Source of the DNA: Erythrobacter aurantius
Lineage (GTDB): Bacteria; Pseudomonadota; Alphaproteobacteria; Sphingomonadales; Sphingomonadaceae
Assembly: GCF_023823125.1 (NCBI RefSeq)
Contig: NZ_CP090949.1
Location: 2,814,001 to 2,878,000, forward strand
DNA length: 64,000 bases
Reading direction: 5' to 3'
Shown: positions 4,701 through 32,130 of the stretch, one piece after another
Numbering within the stretch: position 1 is the first letter of the stretch
How the letters are laid out: each line of letters begins with the position of its first letter
Made by a program: the position numbers and the translations under genes
Notes under the pieces: model-generated
The model's database searches: none
What the model saw: the letters and a program-made list of their open reading frames with translations, nothing else
What the model was told of the DNA's origin: nothing

Positions 4701-5081
4701 ATGGAACGCGCTCACTTTTTCTCCAATCAAGCCGGACGCACCATCAACGCACCCCGCCTCTCGCGGAGCCGCTTCGGGATTGGTGATGTTGTGCGGCACA
4801 AATATTTCGATTTCCGCGGTGTGGTCTTCGATATCGACCCGGTCTTCGCCAATAGCGAGGAATGGTATCAGTCGATCCCGGAGGAAATCCGCCCGCCGCG
4901 CGATCAGCCGTTTTACCACCTGCTCGCGGAAAACGACGATTCGAGCTACGTCGCCTATGTCAGTCAGGGCAATCTGATCGCTGATGCGAGCGGTGGGCCG
5001 GTGGATCATCCCAGAGTGGCCCAGCTGTTCGAGCAATTCAGGGACGGGCGCTATCGCATGCGCCGGTCGTTGACGCACTAG
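4701..5081 (+). CDS. hspQ: Heat shock protein HspQ / hemimethylated-DNA-binding YccV-like
   Basis: A 126-aa protein with the HspQ/YccV core: RFGIGDVVRHKYFDFRGVVF, WYQSIPEEIRPPRDQPFYH and YVAYVSQGNL. HspQ in E. coli is a Lon specificity-enhancing factor, and the domain was first described as binding hemimethylated oriC DNA. An upstream in-frame extension of 32 codons exists, but the ATG at 4701 gives the normal family length and begins where similarity begins. It stands alone between tRNA-Ser and a membrane protein gene read in the same direction. Confidence 0.88.
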   Translation: MERAHFFSNQAGRTINAPRLSRSRFGIGDVVRHKYFDFRGVVFDIDPVFANSEEWYQSIPEEIRPPRDQPFYHLLAENDDSSYVAYVSQGNLIADASGGPVDHPRVAQLFEQFRDGRYRMRRSLTH

Positions 5082-5114
5082 GTCAAGCGAACTGCGCTTG
5101 GGGGAGCGCAATCC

Positions 5115-5702
5115 ATGTCCAGCAATCCGCAATTCACCCATGGCTCCGTCCGCCAGCGCCTTGAACTCGCGCTGACACATGAAATGCGCGATGGCGAGGA
5201 AGTCGCCTGGCAGGCAATGAAGCTGGCCCGGATTGAGCCGAAAGGTTTTGCAATCTGGCTGTTTGCGATTCCCTGGACGGCATTCTCACTGTTCTGGACC
5301 GCGATGGCATCGCTGGCGACAGTCGCCACGGACGATTCCGTCGGGATCCTCGGTTGGGCTTTCCCGCTGTTCGGCACACCCTTCATCCTGATCGGGCTCG
5401 GCATGCTGGCAATGCCTTTCGTACCCTATTTCCAGCGCGGAAGAATCCTGTTCGCGGTGACCAACCAGCGTGTGCTGCAACTGGAAATGGGCCGCGATCT
5501 GACGGTCAAATCGATCCCTGCCAGCCGGATTGGCGATATCGTGCGAAGGGAAAGCGGCGACGGCACCGGATCCGTCGAAATCGCGCTGTCCGGGGCGATC
5601 ATGGGCGTAAATGGTCGCCGTACCACCGAGATGACCCTTGGCCGGGTTGACGACATTCGAGGCGCCTATGCGGCGGTACTCGAATTGAGCCAGCGCGATT
5701 AG
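5115..5702 (+). CDS. Membrane protein with PH-like domain
   Basis: A 195-aa protein. After a charged N-terminus (EMRDGEEVAWQAMK) there are two hydrophobic segments, at about residues 43-75 and 78-103. A soluble C-terminal region (FAVTNQRVLQLEMG, then SIPASRIGDI) resembles bacterial pleckstrin-homology domains that follow membrane anchors. The function is unknown. A ggggagcgca ribosome-binding site precedes the ATG. Its TAG stop overlaps by four bases the TAA stop of the convergent ABC permease. Confidence 0.65.
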   Translation: MSSNPQFTHGSVRQRLELALTHEMRDGEEVAWQAMKLARIEPKGFAIWLFAIPWTAFSLFWTAMASLATVATDDSVGILGWAFPLFGTPFILIGLGMLAMPFVPYFQRGRILFAVTNQRVLQLEMGRDLTVKSIPASRIGDIVRRESGDGTGSVEIALSGAIMGVNGRRTTEMTLGRVDDIRGAYAAVLELSQRD

Positions 5703-6574
5703 CTTTTCAGCTTCCAACCCGATTTAAGCACCGCGTAAACCGCAATTGCGATCGCAATATTGAGCGCGCCCAGTCCTGCGGCGGCAATCACAACGTCACC
5801 GTGCGATCCGATGTCGCTTTCGCCAAGGAAGCCATAGCGAAAGCCCGAAATCACATAGAAGAACGGATTGGCGCGGCTCACCGCCTGGAACGCCGGCGCG
5901 AGGTTTTCGATCACGTAAAACGTGCCGGACAACAGCGACAGCGGGGCGATGACGAAATTGGTGATCGCCGCGTTGTGATCGAATTTTTCCGACCACACCG
6001 ATGTCGCAAGGCCGAGCAGCGCCAGCAGGATTGATCCCATCAGTCCAAACCAGATGATCGCCCAGAGATGTTCGATTGCGAGGCTGACGCCGGGCCACAA
6101 AACCATCGCCAGCCCCACGGTGCAGCCCACGGCAATGGCGCGGGTCACGGCTGCGGCGACGATGCCTGCCATCAATTCGCCCGACGACAGCGGCGGCATC
6201 AGCAAGTCGATGATTGTCCCCTGGATCTTGCCCGAGAGCAGCGAAAAGGACGAATTGGCAAAGGCATTCTGCATCATTCCCATGACGATCAGGCCCGGCG
6301 CAACAAAGCTGGCGAACGGGACGCCCAGCACTTCGCGCCCTTCACGGCCCAGCGCGACAGTGAAGATGACCAGAAACAGCAGCGTCGTTACTGCCGGCGC
6401 CCAGATCGTCTGCGTCTGCACCTTGAGAAACCGCCGCACCTCCTTCATATAGAGGGCGAACAACCCGATGCGGTTGACGCCGGTGATGATTGGCTGTCCG
6501 CGCGGGGAAAAACGGGTGTTCCCCCCGGTGTCTTTCTGTATGGGAACAGGGTTTGCTGAAATCTCTTCTGCCAT
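5699..6574 (-). CDS. ABC-2 type transporter permease
   Basis: A 291-aa protein with six predicted membrane segments and the ABC-2 (drug/lipid exporter) pattern: a cytoplasmic N-terminus, GLIVMGMMQNAF, an IDLLMPPLSSGEL cytoplasmic loop, SLLSGTFYVIENL and ANPFFYVISGFRYG near the end. The start at 6574 (MAEEIS) is chosen over a longer frame because it gives family length. No ATPase gene lies next to it here, so its partner must be elsewhere. The substrate is not predictable. It is convergent with the PH-like gene and divergent from gcrA. Confidence 0.88.
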   Translation of the reverse strand: MAEEISANPVPIQKDTGGNTRFSPRGQPIITGVNRIGLFALYMKEVRRFLKVQTQTIWAPAVTTLLFLVIFTVALGREGREVLGVPFASFVAPGLIVMGMMQNAFANSSFSLLSGKIQGTIIDLLMPPLSSGELMAGIVAAAVTRAIAVGCTVGLAMVLWPGVSLAIEHLWAIIWFGLMGSILLALLGLATSVWSEKFDHNAAITNFVIAPLSLLSGTFYVIENLAPAFQAVSRANPFFYVISGFRYGFLGESDIGSHGDVVIAAAGLGALNIAIAIAVYAVLKSGWKLKS

Positions 6575-6661
6575 GATTGGGCGCGTAAGCCCTCTGGCAT
6601 GATGTGACAAGCTGCCTATCTTGGGGCAGACGGTCGTTGGCCGAACGGAGAACGGATTAAC

Positions 6662-7363
6662 ATGAGTTGGACTGATGAGCGGATCGCTACGCTCAAGAAG
6701 ATGTGGGAAGGCGGCGCGACTGCCAGCCAGATCGCCGAGGAACTGGGCGGGGTCAGCCGCAACGCGGTGATCGGCAAAGCTCACCGGCTGGGCCTGAAAT
6801 CACGCCCTTCACCGGTCAAGGCGAACGACAAGAAGAAGCCGGCGAAGAAACCGGCGGCCAAGCCTGCGCCCGCTGCGAAGAAAGCGGCACCACCCGCGCC
6901 CAAGCCGTCGCCAAAGCCTGCTGCTGCCGAAAACGAAAGCGCGCCGGAAGCACCTGTGGCCAAGGCGGATACGGCACCGGCGAAGGACGGCAATTCGCAG
7001 CCCATGCCCAACCCCACGCCAGATCTTCCAAAGATCGTTTCGGTCGGCCCCGGCGGGTTCCTGCGCCAAGGCCCGGGCGACCAGCAGGCACCGATTCCCC
7101 CTGCTCCGCCGCGGCGGCTGGTTCCGGCCAAGCCAAGCCCTGAAATCGCCGACAAGACAAGCCTGCTCGATCTGTCGGACAAGGTTTGCCGCTGGCCGAT
7201 GGGCCATCCGGGCGAACCCGATTTCCATTTCTGCGGAGAAACGGTGAACCCCGGTTTCCCCTATTGCGTCGAACATTGCGGCCGGGCCTATCAGGCACAG
7301 CTTCCGCGTGGTGCGCGCCGTCCCCCACCGCCGCTTCCTTTCGGCGGGCCGCGCGTCCGCTGA
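6662..7363 (+). CDS. gcrA: GcrA cell-cycle regulator
   Basis: A 233-aa protein with the GcrA N-terminal DNA-binding domain (MSWTDERIATLKKMWEGGAT, then GGVSRNAVIGKAHRLGL). A long Lys/Ala/Pro-rich low-complexity linker spans about residues 55-165. A conserved C-terminal sigma-70-interacting region follows (DKVCRWPMGHPGEPDFHFCG, then PYCVEHCGRAY). In Caulobacter GcrA binds sigma70 holoenzyme and activates promoters carrying methylated GANTC sites written by CcrM. The linker is longer than in Caulobacter. The gene is apparently monocistronic, with a short promoter region shared with the divergent permease. Confidence 0.96.
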   Translation: MSWTDERIATLKKMWEGGATASQIAEELGGVSRNAVIGKAHRLGLKSRPSPVKANDKKKPAKKPAAKPAPAAKKAAPPAPKPSPKPAAAENESAPEAPVAKADTAPAKDGNSQPMPNPTPDLPKIVSVGPGGFLRQGPGDQQAPIPPAPPRRLVPAKPSPEIADKTSLLDLSDKVCRWPMGHPGEPDFHFCGETVNPGFPYCVEHCGRAYQAQLPRGARRPPPPLPFGGPRVR

Positions 7364-7459
7364 CCTATTGAATGACCGTTCCCGCCCGGCCAGCGCCCGC
7401 GATGGCGCAGCCGGGTGGTTTTCTGTTTCCAGGAACCAGAGACACGCAGGAGTTCACTC

Positions 7460-25338: not shown

Positions 25339-25752
25339 CTAGATCTTGCCTTCGACCCAGGCTTCAGCTTGGCGGCGCAGACGCGCCTCCAAATATCTTT
25401 CCAGACCCTCGGCGTATTGCCGCATGGCCAGGACTTCCGCATCGCTCAGAGGATCTTCGAATTCGAAACCGTTCGAACCGCCATTCGGGCCGATGTCGCA
25501 GCGCGTCACAAAACCGAAACTGTCGATGCCATCAACCTGCAGGATCGCTCTTGCACCAGCAGCCAGAGGTTGCTTGAGGCCGATGTGAGCGCCTGTACGC
25601 GACAAGTTGACGAGGATGCAGCGCGAAGCTCCGTCAAGGGTCAACAGTCGCGCAGGGATCGACAAACGCAAACGAGGCGCATGGCGACGACCCACGATCT
25701 GTTCGGGGTCATTGTCGATTAAAGTCGGCCCAGGGACACGGTCAAACTGCAT
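25339..25752 (-). CDS. PilZ domain protein (first of a tandem pair)
   Basis: A 137-aa protein built of one PilZ domain: RRHAPRLRLSIPARLL carries the RxxxR c-di-GMP motif and VNLSRTGAHIGL the (D/N)xSxxG motif. A short C-terminal helix follows (YLEARLRRQAEAWVEG). It should bind c-di-GMP and act as a stand-alone effector; its target is unknown. The ATG at 25752 is chosen over a GTG nine codons upstream. A paralogue lies directly upstream in the same direction. Confidence 0.88.
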   Translation of the reverse strand: MQFDRVPGPTLIDNDPEQIVGRRHAPRLRLSIPARLLTLDGASRCILVNLSRTGAHIGLKQPLAAGARAILQVDGIDSFGFVTRCDIGPNGGSNGFEFEDPLSDAEVLAMRQYAEGLERYLEARLRRQAEAWVEGKI

Positions 25753-25821
25753 GATCGTGCCAACTTGAACCGGAGGCACGAAAAATGGGTTCAGGCCCGG
25801 ATAGGGATTAACACCGTAGTT

Positions 25822-26193
25822 TTAGCGGAGGCCCTTGCCTGACGTCCAGGCCATCACCGCTTCGATCATTTCTTCCTGTTCGCGTTCGGCCTGCCCTTCC
25901 TGATACTGGCGGATCCCGAAAACGAAATGATCGTCCACCGGTATGTCGAAAGACAGCGCGTTCATGCCCGTTTGCTTGCGGGTGACGACCATGAAATGAT
26001 CGATCGGGCCGCAACGCAGATAGCCCTCCGCCCCCAACTTCAAAGGTTCGGGCAGCGCGATCAGCACACCGGTGCGCGACAGGTTCACGAGAATGCAGTT
26101 CTGGTTGCCGGTCACGGCCAAAAGCGTTCCGGGCAGGGACAAGGGCAGGCGCGGAGCGGCGCGTTCTGCTGTCTCGAGTCGTTGCTGTTCCAT
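25822..26193 (-). CDS. PilZ domain protein (second of a tandem pair)
   Basis: A 123-aa single-domain PilZ protein. RAAPRLPLSLPGTLL keeps the RxxxR pattern and VNLSRTGVLIALPEPL the (D/N)xSxxG motif. The C-terminal helix (YQEGQAEREQEEMIEAVMAW) parallels that of its neighbour. The two are clearly paralogous and probably arose by tandem duplication. The ATG at 26193 is used; the frame extends upstream to a TTG with no support. It lies between the first PilZ gene and pspF. Confidence 0.87.
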   Translation of the reverse strand: MEQQRLETAERAAPRLPLSLPGTLLAVTGNQNCILVNLSRTGVLIALPEPLKLGAEGYLRCGPIDHFMVVTRKQTGMNALSFDIPVDDHFVFGIRQYQEGQAEREQEEMIEAVMAWTSGKGLR

Positions 26194-26318
26194 CGAACCA
26201 CCTGAGCTTCTGGCGACATATTGGCCGAAGGTGGTAAAGGAATGGTAAGCTCGGGGGCAAAATTGCCGTGTTTCCAATACGCTATTGGCTCACGCCCGAT
26301 CAGCCTTGCGAGCTGTAA

Positions 26319-27374
<1,056 letters not shown>

Positions 27375-27490
27375 CCCCGAACTCCTTTCCAGCCAAGATA
27401 TAGTGAAAAATCCCAAGGGTTGGCAATAGCCGCCAAGTCGTTCATCGGATTGTCACGCATTTTGGCCGGATTTCCGCGGTTTTTCGGTTT

Positions 27491-27506
27491 TGGCACGGCG
27501 GTTGCA
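27491..27506 (+). promoter_or_regulatory. Sigma-54 promoter of the psp operon
   Basis: TGGCAC (27491-27496), five bases, then TTGCA (27502-27506) is an exact match to the sigma-54 -24/-12 consensus. It lies 48 bases upstream of the first ATG of the operon and 117 bases from the divergent pspF start, leaving room for PspF-binding enhancer sites in 27375-27490. Transcription should start near 27517-27519. Confidence 0.92.
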
Positions 27507-27553
27507 AAGTTTGGAGCAACAGTTTCAGTCACACTCTTTCGGAGGCCAAGACC

Positions 27554-27721
27554 ATGTACAACCGCGCTTTCTTCAACACCAAGCTGGGCCAGGCTTCGCT
27601 TGCCAGCGTGTTCGCGATGACCGCGATGATCGCGCTCACCACCCAGATGACGCTGACTTCGCAGGATGCGCAGATCGCGCAGCCGCAAGGCGACAGCATC
27701 ATGCTGGTTGAGCTGGCTTGA
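27554..27721 (+). CDS. 55-aa membrane peptide opening the psp operon
   Basis: An ATG with a GGAGG site eight bases upstream begins a 55-aa product with one hydrophobic segment (residues about 15-33, SLASVFAMTAMIALTTQM) and a polar C-terminal tail (TSQDAQIAQPQGDSIMLVEL). No family is recognised. It is the first reading frame after the sigma-54 promoter, so it should be induced together with pspA. Its stop at 27719-27721 falls at the start of a coding-like stretch that leads into pspA. Confidence 0.75.
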   Translation: MYNRAFFNTKLGQASLASVFAMTAMIALTTQMTLTSQDAQIAQPQGDSIMLVELA

Positions 27722-28014
27722 GACTTGCCTTGAGCAAGCGAGACGACATCCCCTTCGGGCCGGAGCGCACCACTCCCCCCGCGAATGCCGCCAAGGCGAG
27801 CGACGCGCTTTCCCCGACGCGCGACGGCTCTGGCGGCAGCGCTCCGGCCCAATCCTCTGCCAAAGCCGTCGCCAAGGGCGCGCTGTCGCGGCTCGATGCC
27901 GAAATCGAAGCCTTGCGCCGCAGCCCCACTCCGACGCAGAATTACGGCCGAGGCGACAAGGGTGAAGACTCGCAGCGCCAAAGCACCAACCCGTTCCTAG
28001 ATGGAGTAGCCTTT
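27722..28014 (+). other. Coding-like leader in frame with pspA
   Basis: This 293-base interval has no stop codon in the pspA frame and shows the GC-rich third-position pattern of real genes. The virtual product is Ala/Ser/Pro-rich and contains RLDAEIEALRRSP, which echoes the EIEALRD tail of the downstream paralogues. A possible TTG start lies at 27730 without a clear ribosome-binding site. It may encode an N-terminal extension of PspA or be a decayed or fused paralogue. It could also be an untranslated leader. Confidence 0.45.
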
Positions 28015-28698
28015 ATGGGCATTTTCAGCCGCACCCGTGACATCATTGCCGCGAACTTCAACGATCTGCTGGATAATGCGGACGACCCTTCGAAGATGAT
28101 CCGCATGATCATCCTCGAAATGGAGGAGACGCTGGTTGAAGTCCGGGCAAGCGCGGCACGCACGATTGCCGACCAGAAGGAAATGCGCCGCCATGTCATG
28201 AAGCTCGACAAGCTTCAGGCCGACTGGGCCGACAAGGCGCAGCTCGCGCTGTCGAAAGACCGCGAAGACCTGGCCCGCGCCGCTCTGGTCGAAAAGAAGA
28301 AGGCCGGCGACATGGGCGATCAGCTCAAGCAGGAAATCGCCGTGCTCGACGACGCGTTGCGCGCCTATGAGGATGACATCGCGAAATTGCAGCACCGCCT
28401 GCGCGAAGCCCGCAGCCGCCAGACGCAGATCGCCGCCCGCCTCGAAAGCGCGGAAAACCGCGTCAAGCTGCGCACGCTGATGAGCACCGAACGCACTGAC
28501 GAGGCGCTCGCCCGTTTCGACCAGCTCGAACGCCGCGTCGATTACGCCGAAGGCCGCGCCGACGCGATTTCGATCGGTGAAAAGGGCACACCTTCGCTCG
28601 CCGACGAAATCGCCGCGCTCGAAGGGCAGGACGCGATCGACGATGAACTTGCAGCAATGAAGAAAGCGCTCGGCAAGCCCGACGCGAAAGAGGGGTAA
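28015..28698 (+). CDS. pspA: Phage shock protein A
   Basis: A 227-aa ESCRT-III-like coiled-coil protein. It has the amphipathic N-terminus (MGIFSRTRDIIAANFNDLLD), EDPSKMIR-type (here DDPSKMIRMIILEMEETLVE), and long helices up to residue about 180. A short C-terminal segment follows (PSLADEIAALEGQDAIDDEL). It binds stressed membranes and inhibits PspF in known systems. The ATG at 28015 has a GGAG site eight bases upstream and gives the normal family length, but the frame stays open for about 99 codons further upstream. Confidence 0.96.
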   Translation: MGIFSRTRDIIAANFNDLLDNADDPSKMIRMIILEMEETLVEVRASAARTIADQKEMRRHVMKLDKLQADWADKAQLALSKDREDLARAALVEKKKAGDMGDQLKQEIAVLDDALRAYEDDIAKLQHRLREARSRQTQIAARLESAENRVKLRTLMSTERTDEALARFDQLERRVDYAEGRADAISIGEKGTPSLADEIAALEGQDAIDDELAAMKKALGKPDAKEG

Positions 28699-28704
28699 GA
28701 CGCC

Positions 28705-29004
28705 ATGGAAGAGATCATCATCATTCCCGCCGTACTCATCGGCCTGCCGTGGCTCATCCTCCACTATGTCACCAAGTGGAAGACCGCCGCGACCATCACC
28801 ACCGATGACGAAGTGCTGCTCGAGGAACTCTACAACCTCGCCAAGCGGCTGGATGAACGGATGGACACGGTCGAGCGGCTCGTCGCCACCGACGATCCCG
28901 ATTTCCACCCGGTCAAGCGCCTGCAGGCCGACCAGGAAACCGACAACCAGCAGCTGCGTGAACTCGAACAGCTGATCGCCGAAAAGAAAGGAACCCGCGC
29001 ATGA
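28705..29004 (+). CDS. pspB: Phage shock protein B
   Basis: A 99-aa inner-membrane protein with one N-terminal membrane helix (residues about 4-22). A cytoplasmic helix carries the PspB signature RLDERMDTVERLVATDDPDF. The tail is longer than in E. coli PspB (74 aa). With PspC it senses envelope stress and relieves PspA inhibition of PspF in enterobacteria. A GAGGGG site lies within the end of pspA, and the stop overlaps pspC in an ATGA. Confidence 0.92.
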   Translation: MEEIIIIPAVLIGLPWLILHYVTKWKTAATITTDDEVLLEELYNLAKRLDERMDTVERLVATDDPDFHPVKRLQADQETDNQQLRELEQLIAEKKGTRA

Positions 29005-29381
29005 ACAGCCCCCGCACGACGCTTTACCGCGACAGCCACAATGCCAAGCTGATGGGCGTGTGTTCGGGTATCTCCGAATACACCGGAGTGGATACGTTCT
29101 GGATCCGTCTTGGCGCCATCGGCTTGACGATTTTTGCACTCGGCCCAGTAGCCATACTTGCCTATCTGATCGCCGGTTTCGTTCTCAAGAAGAAGCCGCC
29201 GCACCTCTACCGCGATACGCAGGAAGAGCAGTACTGGCAGCGCGTCCGGCAGAGCCCGAAGCGCACGGCCCGCGAAATCCGCGCGCGCTTCCGCGATATC
29301 GACCGCCGCCTTGCCGACGTTGAAACCTATTACGTCAGCAACAATCCGCGCCTGACGGCAGAAATCGAACAGCTGCGCTGA
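29001..29381 (+). CDS. pspC: Phage shock protein C
   Basis: A 126-aa protein with a PspC domain: TLYRDSHNAKLMGVCSGISE and GVDTFWIRLGAIGLTIFALG, with two membrane passes between residues about 33 and 63. A basic cytoplasmic tail ends in DIDRRLADVETYYVSNNP and EIEQLR. That tail has the same layout as the tails of PspB and of the next paralogous genes. PspC is the partner of PspB in signalling membrane stress. ATGA overlap with pspB. Confidence 0.95.
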   Translation: MNSPRTTLYRDSHNAKLMGVCSGISEYTGVDTFWIRLGAIGLTIFALGPVAILAYLIAGFVLKKKPPHLYRDTQEEQYWQRVRQSPKRTAREIRARFRDIDRRLADVETYYVSNNPRLTAEIEQLR

Positions 29382-29409
29382 ACGGCGCGAAAGTAGGAGG
29401 GACTTTTCA

Positions 29410-29718
29410 ATGTGGGACTGGGCTTATCTGATACCGATCCTTGGCGTGTCGATCCCGATCGTCGCGATCTGGACGACCCACCAGCGCAAGCTGGCTGAAA
29501 TGCAGGTCAGCACCACCGCCGACGCCACAGCCGAAAAGGCAGCGCAATACGCAGCGCAGGTCCAGCGGCTCGAAGACAGGGTGCAGGTGCTCGAACGGAT
29601 CGTCACCGATCGCGGATACGACATCGCCACCCAGATCGAGGCTCTGCGCGACACCCGCAAGGTTGAAGATCCGGACAGCGGCGTGCCGCTCAACATCGCC
29701 AGAAGGGAGCAGGCGTAA
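29410..29718 (+). CDS. PspB-like membrane protein, tandem paralogue A
   Basis: A 102-aa product with an N-terminal membrane helix (residues about 4-21), an Ala-rich linker, and a coiled-coil tail with RVQVLERIVTDRGYDI (57-72) and QIEALRD (75-81). The tail ends in SGVPLNI. The LERIVTD motif matches the PspB signature region. An AGGAGG site nine bases before the ATG suggests strong translation. It forms a TAATG junction with the next gene. Family membership is inferred from the shared motif; function unknown. Confidence 0.85.
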   Translation: MWDWAYLIPILGVSIPIVAIWTTHQRKLAEMQVSTTADATAEKAAQYAAQVQRLEDRVQVLERIVTDRGYDIATQIEALRDTRKVEDPDSGVPLNIARREQA

Positions 29719-30065
29719 TGGACTGGGGCGGGCCGCAATTCATTATCGCGATCATCGCTGTATCCTATGGCGCATGGATCCTGAACAACTGGATCCGCGC
29801 CAAGCATGGCTACGCGCTGGAAGATGAATTCGGCGGTTTCACCGAGAAACCCGACACTGCCGAAGCCCAGCGGTTGAAGGCCGAAAACCGCGAACTGCAC
29901 GACAAGATCGACGCAATGCAGGATCGCATGATCGTGCTCGAAAAGATCGTCACCGATCGCGGCTATTCGCTGGCCGAGGAAATCGAATCGCTCAGAGATA
30001 CCCCCACACGGTCAGCCGACACCGGCGTGCCCCTCAACCTTGGAAAGAAGGAAAACCAGTCGTGA
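29718..30065 (+). CDS. PspB-like membrane protein, tandem paralogue B
   Basis: A 115-aa product with one N-terminal membrane helix (residues about 7-24), followed by RAKHGYALEDE. A predicted coiled coil (residues 50-75) and the motif LEKIVTDRGYSL (74-85), EEIESLRD (87-94) come next. The end, TGVPLNLGKKE, is nearly the same as in paralogue A, and HGYALED resembles paralogue C. Start and stop overlap both neighbours (TAATG before, GTGA after). The function is unknown. Confidence 0.85.
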   Translation: MDWGGPQFIIAIIAVSYGAWILNNWIRAKHGYALEDEFGGFTEKPDTAEAQRLKAENRELHDKIDAMQDRMIVLEKIVTDRGYSLAEEIESLRDTPTRSADTGVPLNLGKKENQS

Positions 30066-30427
30066 GCCCCGATGCAGCAGCCATCATCGTCCCCCATCTG
30101 CCCTGGATCATCGGCGGCGCTCTCGCCATCGGCGGGGCCGGCATCTTCGGCTGGGTTTACACCACCCGCCTGCGCATCCAGCACGGATACCCGCTGGATG
30201 GTGCATGGGGCCAGGCCCTGAAGCCTTCGACAGATCACGAAGCAAAGCAGCGCATCAGCCTTTTGACCCAGGAAAACGCCGAACTGCGGGCCGAACTGGG
30301 ATCGGTGAAGGATCGCCTGATCAATGTCGAACGCATCGTCACCGACAGCGGGTTCCATCTCACATCGGAGATCGATGCTCTCCGCGACCGCGCGCTGCAA
30401 CACCGCAAGGATGAAGGAACCGCGTAA
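30062..30427 (+). CDS. PspB-like membrane protein, tandem paralogue C
   Basis: A 121-aa product starting at a GTG that overlaps the stop of paralogue B. It has one Gly/Ala/Ile-rich membrane helix (residues about 13-33), then RIQHGYPLDG and a coiled coil (ISLLTQENAELRAELG). The conserved tail is VERIVTDSGFHLTSEIDALR (89-108). The order of modules is the same as in paralogue B. A TAATG junction joins it to paralogue D. The function is unknown; a cytoplasmic helical tail facing the inner leaflet is inferred from topology. Confidence 0.85.
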   Translation: MSPDAAAIIVPHLPWIIGGALAIGGAGIFGWVYTTRLRIQHGYPLDGAWGQALKPSTDHEAKQRISLLTQENAELRAELGSVKDRLINVERIVTDSGFHLTSEIDALRDRALQHRKDEGTA

Positions 30428-30720
30428 TGGACCCCGATTTCCTGCTTGTGGTGATCATGATCATCACCATTACCGGCATCAGCTTCATCGGGATCAACGC
30501 GATCGTGGCCAAGGTGCTCGATTACAAGCGCGAACAGCGTGCGCACCTTGCCGGTGGCAGCCCGCGATCGGGCGACATCGCCGACCGCACCGATCTGATC
30601 GAAGACCGGCTGCGGGTGCTTGAACGGCTCGCCACCGATCGCGGCGCCTTGCTGGCCGACGAGATCGAAGCGCTGCGCGACGAACGCGCAACCCGCACGA
30701 AGGAACAGGAGCACGGCTGA
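30427..30720 (+). CDS. PspB-like membrane protein, tandem paralogue D
   Basis: A 97-aa product with a very hydrophobic N-terminal helix (residues about 5-28, rich in Ile), a short basic stretch, and the tail EDRLRVLERLATDRGALLAD (59-78) followed by EIEALRDERA. It is shorter than B and C because the coiled coil before the motif is reduced. It joins paralogue E by TGATG. The function is unknown. Confidence 0.84.
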   Translation: MDPDFLLVVIMIITITGISFIGINAIVAKVLDYKREQRAHLAGGSPRSGDIADRTDLIEDRLRVLERLATDRGALLADEIEALRDERATRTKEQEHG

Positions 30721-31058
30721 TGAACTGGACCGTTATCGCCATCGTCGCCATCGTCGTCTGGGGTGTGGTGCAGCTTTCCAAAGCGCGCGCCGGGATCATC
30801 ACCGACGAATCCGGCAATGAAAGCTATATCGGCCACCGCGATGATGCCGCCTCGCGCGCCGAGATCGAGGAAACCCGGCGCGAGATCGAACAATTGCGCG
30901 AGCGCCTGCACGTGCTCGAACGCATCGCCACCGACAACAACACCCCCGATGCCCGCGAACGCGCCCGCATCGCCGCCGAAATCGAAGCGCTGAGAGGCCC
31001 GGAAGAACCCTCTATCGGGCAATCTCTTGCATCTCCGGATAAGGAGCAGAGCCAATGA
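30720..31058 (+). CDS. PspB-like membrane protein, tandem paralogue E
   Basis: A 112-aa product with a short N-terminal membrane helix (residues about 4-19) and a polar loop. A coiled coil (AEIEETRREIEQLRERLHVL) leads into LERIATDNNTP. The DRG part is replaced by DNN and a nine-residue insertion precedes AAEIEALRG, so this member is diverged. It overlaps paralogue F in an ATGA. The function is unknown. Confidence 0.83.
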   Translation: MNWTVIAIVAIVVWGVVQLSKARAGIITDESGNESYIGHRDDAASRAEIEETRREIEQLRERLHVLERIATDNNTPDARERARIAAEIEALRGPEEPSIGQSLASPDKEQSQ

Positions 31059-31303
31059 TGATGGACCCCACTCTTGTTATTGCCGCCACCTGCCTTTTCG
31101 CCGTGTGCGTGGTTGCCTATGTCCTGCTGCAGGCGTGGCAGGGCTGGCTAGAACTCAAGCGGCAGGAGCTTGAGCGTGTCGGACGCAGCGGCAACGCCGA
31201 AATCGAAGGCGGCGCGGGCGTTGGCGCGGCCCGGATCGAACTGGCCGACATGAAAGAGCGGATCAAGAAGCTCGAAGCGATCGCCGCCGGGGTGGAGCTG
31301 TAG
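31055..31303 (+). CDS. PspB-like membrane protein, tandem paralogue F (degenerate tail)
   Basis: The last member of the array: 82 aa, with an N-terminal membrane helix (residues about 7-27) and a shortened tail IELADMKERIKKLEAIAAG. The ERIKKLEAI segment still resembles the PspB signature, but the TDRG and EIEALRD parts are gone. It ends 55 bases before sufE. It may be a minimal or decaying copy. The function is unknown. Confidence 0.78.
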   Translation: MMMDPTLVIAATCLFAVCVVAYVLLQAWQGWLELKRQELERVGRSGNAEIEGGAGVGAARIELADMKERIKKLEAIAAGVEL

Positions 31304-31358: not shown

Positions 31359-31778
31359 ATGCGAACCCTCGATGACATCCTTGAAGAATACGAATTTCTC
31401 GAAGGCGACGAACGCTATTCGCTGCTGATCGAACTGGGCCGGGAACTGGAACCCATGCCCGATGCGCTGAAAACCGATGCCACTCTGGTGCGCGGGTGTT
31501 CGGCGGCGGTGTGGGTCTATCCCACCGAACAGAGCGCAGAGGACGAACAGCGCCTGCATTTCCTCGCCGACAGCAACGCCGCCATCACCAAGGGTATCGT
31601 CGCGCTGGTGATCGCCGCGGTTCAGGACAAGCCCGCCGGCGAAGTCGCGGCGATGGATGTGACGGGCGCGCTTGCTCCGTTCGACCTCAAGAACCAGTTG
31701 TCGAGCAATCGCACGCAGGGCGTCCCCAATATGATCGCGCTGGTGCAGGAACACGCCGCCCGGATAGCGGGGAACTGA
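31359..31778 (+). CDS. sufE: SufE family Fe-S assembly sulfur-acceptor protein
   Basis: A 139-aa protein with the SufE core: ERYSLLIELGRELEPMPDAL and LVRGCSAAVWVYPTE, where the Cys is the persulfide acceptor. The latter half (LHFLADSNAAITKGIVALVI) is also typical. SufE takes sulfur from the cysteine desulfurase SufS. No suf operon is present in this window. It follows the psp array in the same direction but has its own spacing, so co-transcription is uncertain. Confidence 0.94.
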   Translation: MRTLDDILEEYEFLEGDERYSLLIELGRELEPMPDALKTDATLVRGCSAAVWVYPTEQSAEDEQRLHFLADSNAAITKGIVALVIAAVQDKPAGEVAAMDVTGALAPFDLKNQLSSNRTQGVPNMIALVQEHAARIAGN

Positions 31779-31782
31779 TCCC

Positions 31783-32130
31783 ATGCGGCGGCTCTATCTT
31801 GCCGCCGGGATCCTGTTTGTCGCCTTGGGCGCGGTGGGCGCGGTGCTGCCGCTGTTGCCGACTGTCCCCTTCCTGCTGCTGGCCGCATTCTGCTTCGCAC
31901 GCAGCAATCCCGAATGGGAGCGCCGCATTCTCGAACATCCCGTTTGGGGGCCGCAGGTGCGCGAATGGCACGAACGCCGCGCAATCCCGCGCCGCGCCAA
32001 AGTCGCCGCGATCGCGACGTTGGTGGCGGGCGTCGGCTTTACCTGGGTGACTTTGGGCCATCCCTGGGTGTGGATTTCGGTGACGGTGCTGGTGGTGATC
32101 GGCGGCTGGATCGCGACACGCAACGGATAG
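31783..32130 (+). CDS. DUF454 (YbaN-like) inner-membrane protein
   Basis: A 115-aa protein with DUF454 features: GAVGAVLPLLPTVPFLLLAA, FCFARSNPEWERRILEHPVWG and a second membrane pair near the C-terminus (ISVTVLVVIGGWIA). The function of this family is unknown. It starts five bases after the sufE stop, so both are probably one transcript. A 215-base stretch with no clear gene separates it from the convergent crtZ. Confidence 0.88.
   Translation: MRRLYLAAGILFVALGAVGAVLPLLPTVPFLLLAAFCFARSNPEWERRILEHPVWGPQVREWHERRAIPRRAKVAAIATLVAGVGFTWVTLGHPWVWISVTVLVVIGGWIATRNG

Follow-up and report, generated by a model that had tools for sequence, protein, structure and literature searches.

An ordered array of single-helix membrane protein genes in the phage shock operon of Erythrobacter aurantius and its family

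The phage shock protein (Psp) operon of Erythrobacter aurantius continues well beyond pspC, and its continuation raises the question of what a membrane-stress operon may gain from a whole series of small membrane proteins. The stretch analysed, termed the window throughout, comprises 64,000 nucleotides (contig NZ_CP090949.1, positions 2,814,001 to 2,878,000) of a 3.42 Mb genome contained in one contig; all coordinates below are positions within it. Its parts were read from the sequence and from family scans with Pfam and NCBIfam (Table 1). PspF, PspA, PspB and PspC all exceed their curated NCBIfam cut-offs, as expected of a Psp operon of the PspF/sigma-54 type. Behind pspC stand six further genes, here called the array, each of which codes for a protein with one N-terminal hydrophobic stretch.

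The array and its distribution in the family

An initial annotation, made from the letters and their open reading frames, had described the array as six coupled genes at 29410-31303, each with one N-terminal membrane helix, that overlap or abut one another. Coordinates and hydropathy agree with this description, and the junctions read TAATG, GTGA, TAATG, TGATG and ATGA, a 28-base gap separating pspC from gene 1. The common tail, given there as LERIVTDRG followed by EIEALRD in five of the genes, holds as a set of related motifs, its wording being approximate and the variants differing: LERIVTDRG/QIEALRD, LEKIVTDRG/EIESLRD, VERIVTDSG/EIDALRD, LERLATDRG/EIEALRD and LERIATDNN/EIEALRG in genes 1 to 5, respectively. 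The ERIKKLEAI ascribed to the tail of gene 6 is indeed present. Identity to the protein of gene 1 amounts to 21-38% for the other five.

The distribution of such genes was assessed with a profile, A3, built from 41 diverse array proteins; the last genes were excluded, and two singletons from another family were included, as were the window's own proteins of genes 1, 2, 4 and 5. With at most 25 candidates scored per genome, A3 matches 187 of 199 genomes drawn from the same GTDB family at E<=1e-4, in 84 of the 91 genera sampled. The array is thus no peculiarity of one genome, a possibility rejected on these counts, and the outcome that the initial annotation had named as refuting, an array absent or scattered in related genomes, did not occur.

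Two sets of psp loci were compared. Within the genus, 33 loci were fetched via pspB and are therefore unbiased for the array (4 of the 37 genomes supplied none that could be used); for the rest of the family, 78 loci were collected around matches to the array, such that the presence of the array there is by choice. Two additional loci without a psp match (L084 and L085) were dropped. All 33 genus loci carry the array, with 3-7 genes each. Among the 78 others it comprises two genes in 2 loci, three in 12, four in 27, five in 22, six in 9, seven in 4, eight in 1 and nine in 1, giving a range of 2-9 genes over the 111 family loci. Upstream of the array lie PspC in 111, PspB in 110 and PspA in 110 of these loci (the contig of L115 starts too late), in keeping with the original assignment of the array to the psp operon. 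The distance from pspC to the first array gene is 10-224 bases, and 231 of the 412 junctions inside arrays are overlapping or abutting; the gap measures 1-30 bases at 121 junctions and 31-100 at 60.

Array and psp also tend to be absent together. Ten of the 12 family genomes unmatched by A3 have neither PspA nor PspC at E<=0.001, so that absences are shared in 10 of 12 cases and presences in 33 of 33 genus loci; PspA was tested in some of the 187 A3-positive genomes. In another unmatched genome (G151) the contig stops inside pspC. The unmatched genome G130 contains, at 5001-7424 of its locus (L248), a leader-like open reading frame recognized by eye, pspA, pspB, pspC, a single gene of the type that ends the array (subfamily C below) and then sufE; its operon is a minimal version of the arrangement.

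The array genes fall into subfamilies, for which profiles were built from the window's genus. Their order is consistent in all 33 genus loci, reading I, B, A1, A2, E or H, F, D, G, C with members missing. In the rest of the family B often comes after A2, so that there is not one single order, and not every assignment is certain. Subfamily C supplies the last gene in 106 of the 111 family loci, and D the penultimate one in 86. Recent tandem duplication was rejected as an account of the array, since order and subfamilies are kept across genera, as judged with the genus-built profiles. A further set of named loci, the best 80 of 362, was fetched by the last gene and leans to close relatives: 75 of them carry pspA, pspB and pspC on the stretch together with 3-9 array genes, and five are without one or more of the three on the fetched strand and stretch. 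Four loci (L035, L039, L047 and L049) display an additional overlapping open reading frame of 57-58 amino acids after gene C, membrane-protein-like by eye.

The uniformity extends to the proteins. Every one of the 523 array proteins in the 111 loci has its best hydrophobic stretch near the N-terminus, and a second stretch occurs in none; the mean hydropathy of the best stretch reaches 1.6 in 497 and stays below it in 26. The downstream flank of the helix is more positive than the upstream one in 443 proteins, less so in 31 and equal in the rest. Hydropathy and charge are thus those of a single N-terminal helix with an inside tail, as in PspB, and the array tails are predicted to be cytoplasmic in a PspB-like topology (N-terminal helix, positive side inward). 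In the alignment of the 41 members of A3, all the invariant columns fall in the tail and none in the membrane helix. The AlphaFold model of gene 1, which like that of the long PspA treated below is of a single chain and not of a complex, comprises a long helix (4-86) and a short end helix (96-101), with a mean predicted local distance difference test score of 78.4 and a predicted template modelling score of 0.34. Among solved structures nothing convincingly related to the array or to PspC was found, the best E values being 0.035 (a potassium channel) and 0.88. Where relatives of gene 1 have a product name, among the 120 listed of 5,846, it is either hypothetical protein or, for a small number of UniRef entries, Phage shock protein B.

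Relation of the tails to PspC and PspB

The likeness of the tails to known Psp proteins was addressed by profile-profile comparison with hhalign, using 120 of the 416 pooled array tails, 111 PspC, 110 PspB and 106 C genes. The array tails align with PspC tails at 94.9% (score 39.4), compared to 13.7% (19.0) for the reversed PspC control, and with PspB at 52.5% (26.5), compared to 0.7% (13.2) for reversed PspB. The outcome that would have undone the initial proposal, tails unrelated to either protein, did not occur. Its statement that the tail resembles both proteins is sound insofar as both are related, yet the C-terminus of PspC is the closer of the two, and gene 6 has no direct similarity to them. 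Tails of the last genes align with the other array tails at 81%. Scores above the reversed PspC control thus pertain to the pooled tails and not directly to subfamily C, and the last gene is a distinct conserved gene, tied to PspB and PspC solely through the other array tails.

Searches of single proteins point the same way. On its own genome A3 recovers genes 1-5 at E values of 9.5e-27 to 5.3e-21, which places their likeness beyond chance; of the 49 candidates scored there, those that follow with E<=10 are PspC (1.2e-4), array gene 6 (0.018) and a single further place (0.2), PspC therefore being the best match outside the array. At E<=0.01 the 41 members give weak matches to TIGR02978 (PspC) in 11 cases and to TIGR02976 (PspB) in 7, and the first of them scores under both cut-offs. 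Within the window, the TIGR02976 cut-off of 51.7 bits is reached by neither gene 1 (25.1) nor gene 2 (14.5), and genes 3-6 have no match at E<=1; TIGR02978, with a cut-off of 104, matches only the tail part of genes 1-3 (16.9, 13.2 and 17.3 bits) and leaves genes 4-6 unmatched. The PspC domain, PF04024, matches no array protein of the window, and no Pfam or NCBIfam cut-off is exceeded by any of the six, the best match to a Psp family being that of gene 1 with TIGR02976. The view that each array gene is a true PspB or PspC was rejected on account of these cut-offs. On the profile evidence, the tails of array genes 1-5 are related to the C-terminus of PspC, and less so to PspB.

With PspB (TIGR02976 / PF06667) the array proteins share one N-terminal helix, a helical tail with an RLxxRhxxhERhh core and their place in the operon. 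Unlike aligned PspB, five of them end in the box [EQ]I[ED]xLR, and the operon possesses a separate, true pspB besides the array. The C-terminal tail of PspC (approximately positions 71-121 of TIGR02978) is the closest profile match and has the end box EIExLR in common with the array, whose members are nevertheless devoid of the PspC domain.

Proteins with such tails also occur outside the family. In a class-wide draw A3 matches 10 of 387 genomes, 6 of them in the family. A phylum-wide draw gives 54 of 397; 21 of these belong to the family, and the other 33, from outside it, have 1-3 matches each (at most 12 candidates per genome were scored in either draw). Loci from 14 of these 33 genomes yielded 16 proteins, whose open frames span 75-104 codons apart from one of 139; they stand singly or, in L254 and L256, as neighbouring pairs. 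The single-helix proteins of other Proteobacteria (e.g. L249, L251, L252 and L254) exhibit the same layout of a helix plus ERVxVLExIVTD as the array; one of them reaches 40.7 bits with TIGR02976 (E 2e-10; cut-off 51.7), and among six that were scanned none meets a curated cut-off. Same-tail single-helix proteins away from psp were observed in L249-L262 and also in L163 and L164. As for psp loci in other families of the order, 17 of 19 have no array gene after pspC and two have one, placed behind a second gene that is PspC-like by eye. The psp operons of L069 and L075 (genomes G059 and G049) hold such a second PspC-like gene and, after it, one array-type gene, which may represent an intermediate.

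The PspA extension, the leader gene and the operon layout

Two features upstream of the array come in addition to those of the initial annotation, namely an N-terminal extension of PspA and a small leader gene at 27554-27721. The pspA frame remains open 5' of the canonical start, and the in-frame extension at 27730-28014 (+) is conserved. It often shows GPER near its start, followed by SRLDxEIExLRxSPTPTQ and mostly GV or GA plus two residues, and is joined to MGIFSR. The strict box occurs in 65 of the 108 readable family loci (the extension is unreadable in L067, L111 and L115), with a degenerate box recognized by eye in three more (L105, L120 and L137); a looser pattern is present in 72 of the 75 complete named loci, a set leaning to close relatives. 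Over the 17 codons of the box, pairwise identity per codon position is 0.746, 0.819 and 0.481, a pattern as for translated sequence, and over the last 9 codons 5' of the internal ATG it is 0.591, 0.650 and 0.531. A GGAG precedes the internal start at a constant place in all 65 strict-box loci. Two forms of PspA are likely to arise from one frame, and some members of the family seem to have a PspA with a newly acquired N-terminal part.

Database proteins of approximately 320 amino acids contain the extension, which implies that gene callers used the long start; many are named PspA among the 120 listed of 192 (E<=0.001), 49 of which entered the 50-sequence alignment A5. A limited literature search found no discussion of the extension. 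Its box aligns with the end of the array tails at 92% (reversed 1%) and with the end of PspC at 90%, a likeness that is suggestive only. In the AlphaFold model of the long PspA the extension is disordered except for a low-confidence helix (54-64). It is placed ahead of helix alpha0, which is described as membrane-interacting (PMC12358876).

The leader, searched with its own profile, accompanies 63 of the 68 family loci with an extended PspA and none of 42 loci without the extension (two of them unreadable for it), nor any of 19 loci from other families. This profile search replaced an initial strict-pattern search, which had found 27 of 127. The leader product has no Pfam match and resembles, by eye, a signal peptide or a single helix. 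The extension also coincides with differences in the array: overlapping or abutting junctions make up 78% in the 68 extension loci compared to 9% in 40 loci without it, and mean array size is 5.0 compared to 4.2.

The predicted promoter, a consensus sigma-54-type site, sits 524 bases 5' of the canonical pspA ATG. A strict sigma-54 pattern lies within 800 bases upstream in 83 of 108 family loci, a count that misses differing or farther sites, and it occurs in 0 of 111 over the stretch from the pspB region to the end of the array. Directly 3' of the array come a sufE-like gene and a DUF454 gene (31359-32130, +). The sufE-like gene, which follows the last array gene in many relatives as well, is probably not part of the Psp system. 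Two neighbouring PilZ-domain genes (PF07238) lie beside pspF at 25342-26277 (-).

Table 1. Features of the psp operon and its surroundings in the window
Feature	Position	Strand	Basis
pspF, sigma-54 enhancer-binding activator, divergent from the operon	26319..27416	-	TIGR02974, 482.7 bits (cut-off 443.55)
Sigma-54-type promoter, predicted, TGGCACGGCGGTTGCA	27491..27506	+	consensus site read in sequence
Small leader gene, 55 amino acids, first after the promoter	27554..27721	+	own-profile search
pspA, long form, 322 amino acids, inferred TTG start	27730..28698	+	open frame and protein-level conservation
Conserved element SRLDAEIEALRRSPTPTQ in the PspA extension	27886..27939	+	conservation across loci
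GGAG, likely Shine-Dalgarno of the internal (canonical) pspA start at 28015	28003..28006	+	constant spacing
Canonical PspA, 227 amino acids	28015..28698	+	TIGR02977, 279.2 bits (cut-off 242.95)
pspB	28705..29004	+	TIGR02976, 87.6 bits (cut-off 51.7)
pspC, C-terminus ...RLTAEIEQLR	29001..29381	+	TIGR02978, 130.3 bits (cut-off 104)
Array gene 1, subfamily B	29410..29718	+	TIGR02976, 25.1 bits (below cut-off); TIGR02978 tail part, E 0.0045
Array gene 2, subfamily A1	29718..30065	+	subfamily profiles
Array gene 3, subfamily A2	30062..30427	+	TIGR02978 positions 77-121, E 0.0032
Array gene 4, subfamily E	30427..30720	+	subfamily profiles
Array gene 5, subfamily D	30720..31058	+	subfamily profiles
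Array gene 6, conserved last gene, subfamily C	31055..31303	+	position in family loci; alignment of 11
sufE-like gene, next downstream	31359..31778	+	PF02657, 111.2 bits

What the array may do

The explanation considered best, and held with middling confidence, is that the array would multiply the membrane docking sites for PspA. An operon of the PspF/sigma-54 type has, on this view, been enlarged in the Erythrobacter/Sphingomonadaceae group by ordered single-helix proteins of the inner membrane. The array tails are proposed as docking sites for PspA, or as partners of PspB and PspC, because they are related to the PspC domain and predicted to lie inside. In Yersinia the PspC tail is reported to bind PspA in the 'on' state (PMC5596341) and to pull it off PspF, and E. 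coli work reports that the leucine zipper of PspC is needed for its interaction with PspA (PMC3068692). By analogy, the array tails may bind PspA and pull it off PspF, and possibly pair with PspB and PspC. The hetero-oligomers and the tuning of stress sensing raised in the initial annotation are a hypothesis. Many docking sites on different helices and juxtamembrane segments could allow more kinds of disturbance to recruit PspA, or hold it more firmly. Where PspA is long, in one clade, its tail-like extension box could have the same binding partners as the tails or be a competitor of theirs, and the short PspA from the internal start may serve as a plain effector.

Several observations weigh against this explanation. 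In the same E. coli work the PspC tail is discussed as periplasmic or as having two topologies (PMC3068692), such that the docking of PspA leans on the Yersinia view. PspB and PspC align directly with each other at only 2.6%; scores are modest, the tails being short and helical; the reversed PspC control stands above zero; and an IS1182 transposase model, surely by chance, matches 3 of the 41 members of A3. The tails of the C genes, whose position is the most constant, show no direct similarity by hhalign to PspB (0.2%, reversed PspB 1.3%) or to PspC (0.1%), and the extension box reaches 39% with reversed PspC. Moreover, phmmer searches with the window proteins found no pspA, pspB or pspC within about 5 kb in the 14 outside loci, so that belonging to the tail family does not in itself imply a tie to Psp.

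The last point also suits a different explanation, possible if doubtful, in which array proteins under PspF control would protect the membrane directly, as a scaffold or plug of the kind considered for PspB and PspC against secretins, with little role in sensing or in the release of PspA. The position of the array downstream in the operon, with no strict sigma-54 site of its own, agrees with this, as does the Yersinia finding that PspB and PspC but not PspA are required against secretin toxicity (PMC5596341). The confinement of all invariant columns to a PspC-like tail points instead to a cytoplasmic partner. An elaborated form of the docking proposal, which we regard as rather unlikely, envisages a combinatorial docking code for PspA, a relative of the endosomal sorting complex required for transport III (ESCRT-III): up to nine anchors would combine different helices with one PspA-binding tail, and of two PspA forms the long one, through the copy of the end box, would compete with or mimic the anchors and so set a switch between regulator and membrane effector. 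It is less likely still that the array acts as a brake or buffer, its tails pairing as decoys with those of PspB and PspC or with PspA, holding the system off and raising its threshold; the similarity of the tails fits this, and no evidence here separates such a brake from docking. That the array consists of neutral tandem copies of pspB with no role of their own, for which the variable gene number and the few UniRef relatives named Phage shock protein B might speak, is very improbable and largely refuted by the conserved order and last genes, and by subfamilies recognizable across genera in spite of the low identity among the window genes.

The psp operons of E. coli (pspABCDE and pspG) and of Yersinia have PspF, a sigma-54 promoter and the order pspA-B-C in common with the operon of the window. 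To our knowledge, neither contains such an array or an extension of PspA. E. coli has PspD, PspE and PspG, and Yersinia is without PspE and has a PspC with an N-terminal extension (PMC9239133). The initial statement that no described Psp system has such an array was not quite right, since PspB duplicates are in print: Ravi et al. 2024 (PMC11237479), in notes of one line each, mention 'PspB duplicates' within the operon as well as a fusion of PspC with a PspB-like domain ('PspC fused to a divergent PspB'), and these share with the present case the extra PspB-like genes and the relation between PspB and PspC tails. The family-wide ordered array, its constant last gene, the leader and the PspA extension with an internal start were not found in section 17 and the other passages of that paper that were searched. 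The operon thus appears to belong to a known Psp system with new variant features, namely the ordered family-wide array with its constant last gene, the extension of PspA and the leader linked to it.

Psp is a textbook membrane-stress system, yet its sensing step, the release of PspA by PspB and PspC, is unsettled. A family with 2-9 paralogues, most of which carry a PspC-like tail on different helices, offers a natural experiment in which the sensor helix is set apart from the PspA-binding tail, and the minimal version in one genome, with pspABC and the last gene, adds to it. The N-terminal extension of PspA represents a further unexplained feature of an ESCRT-III relative.

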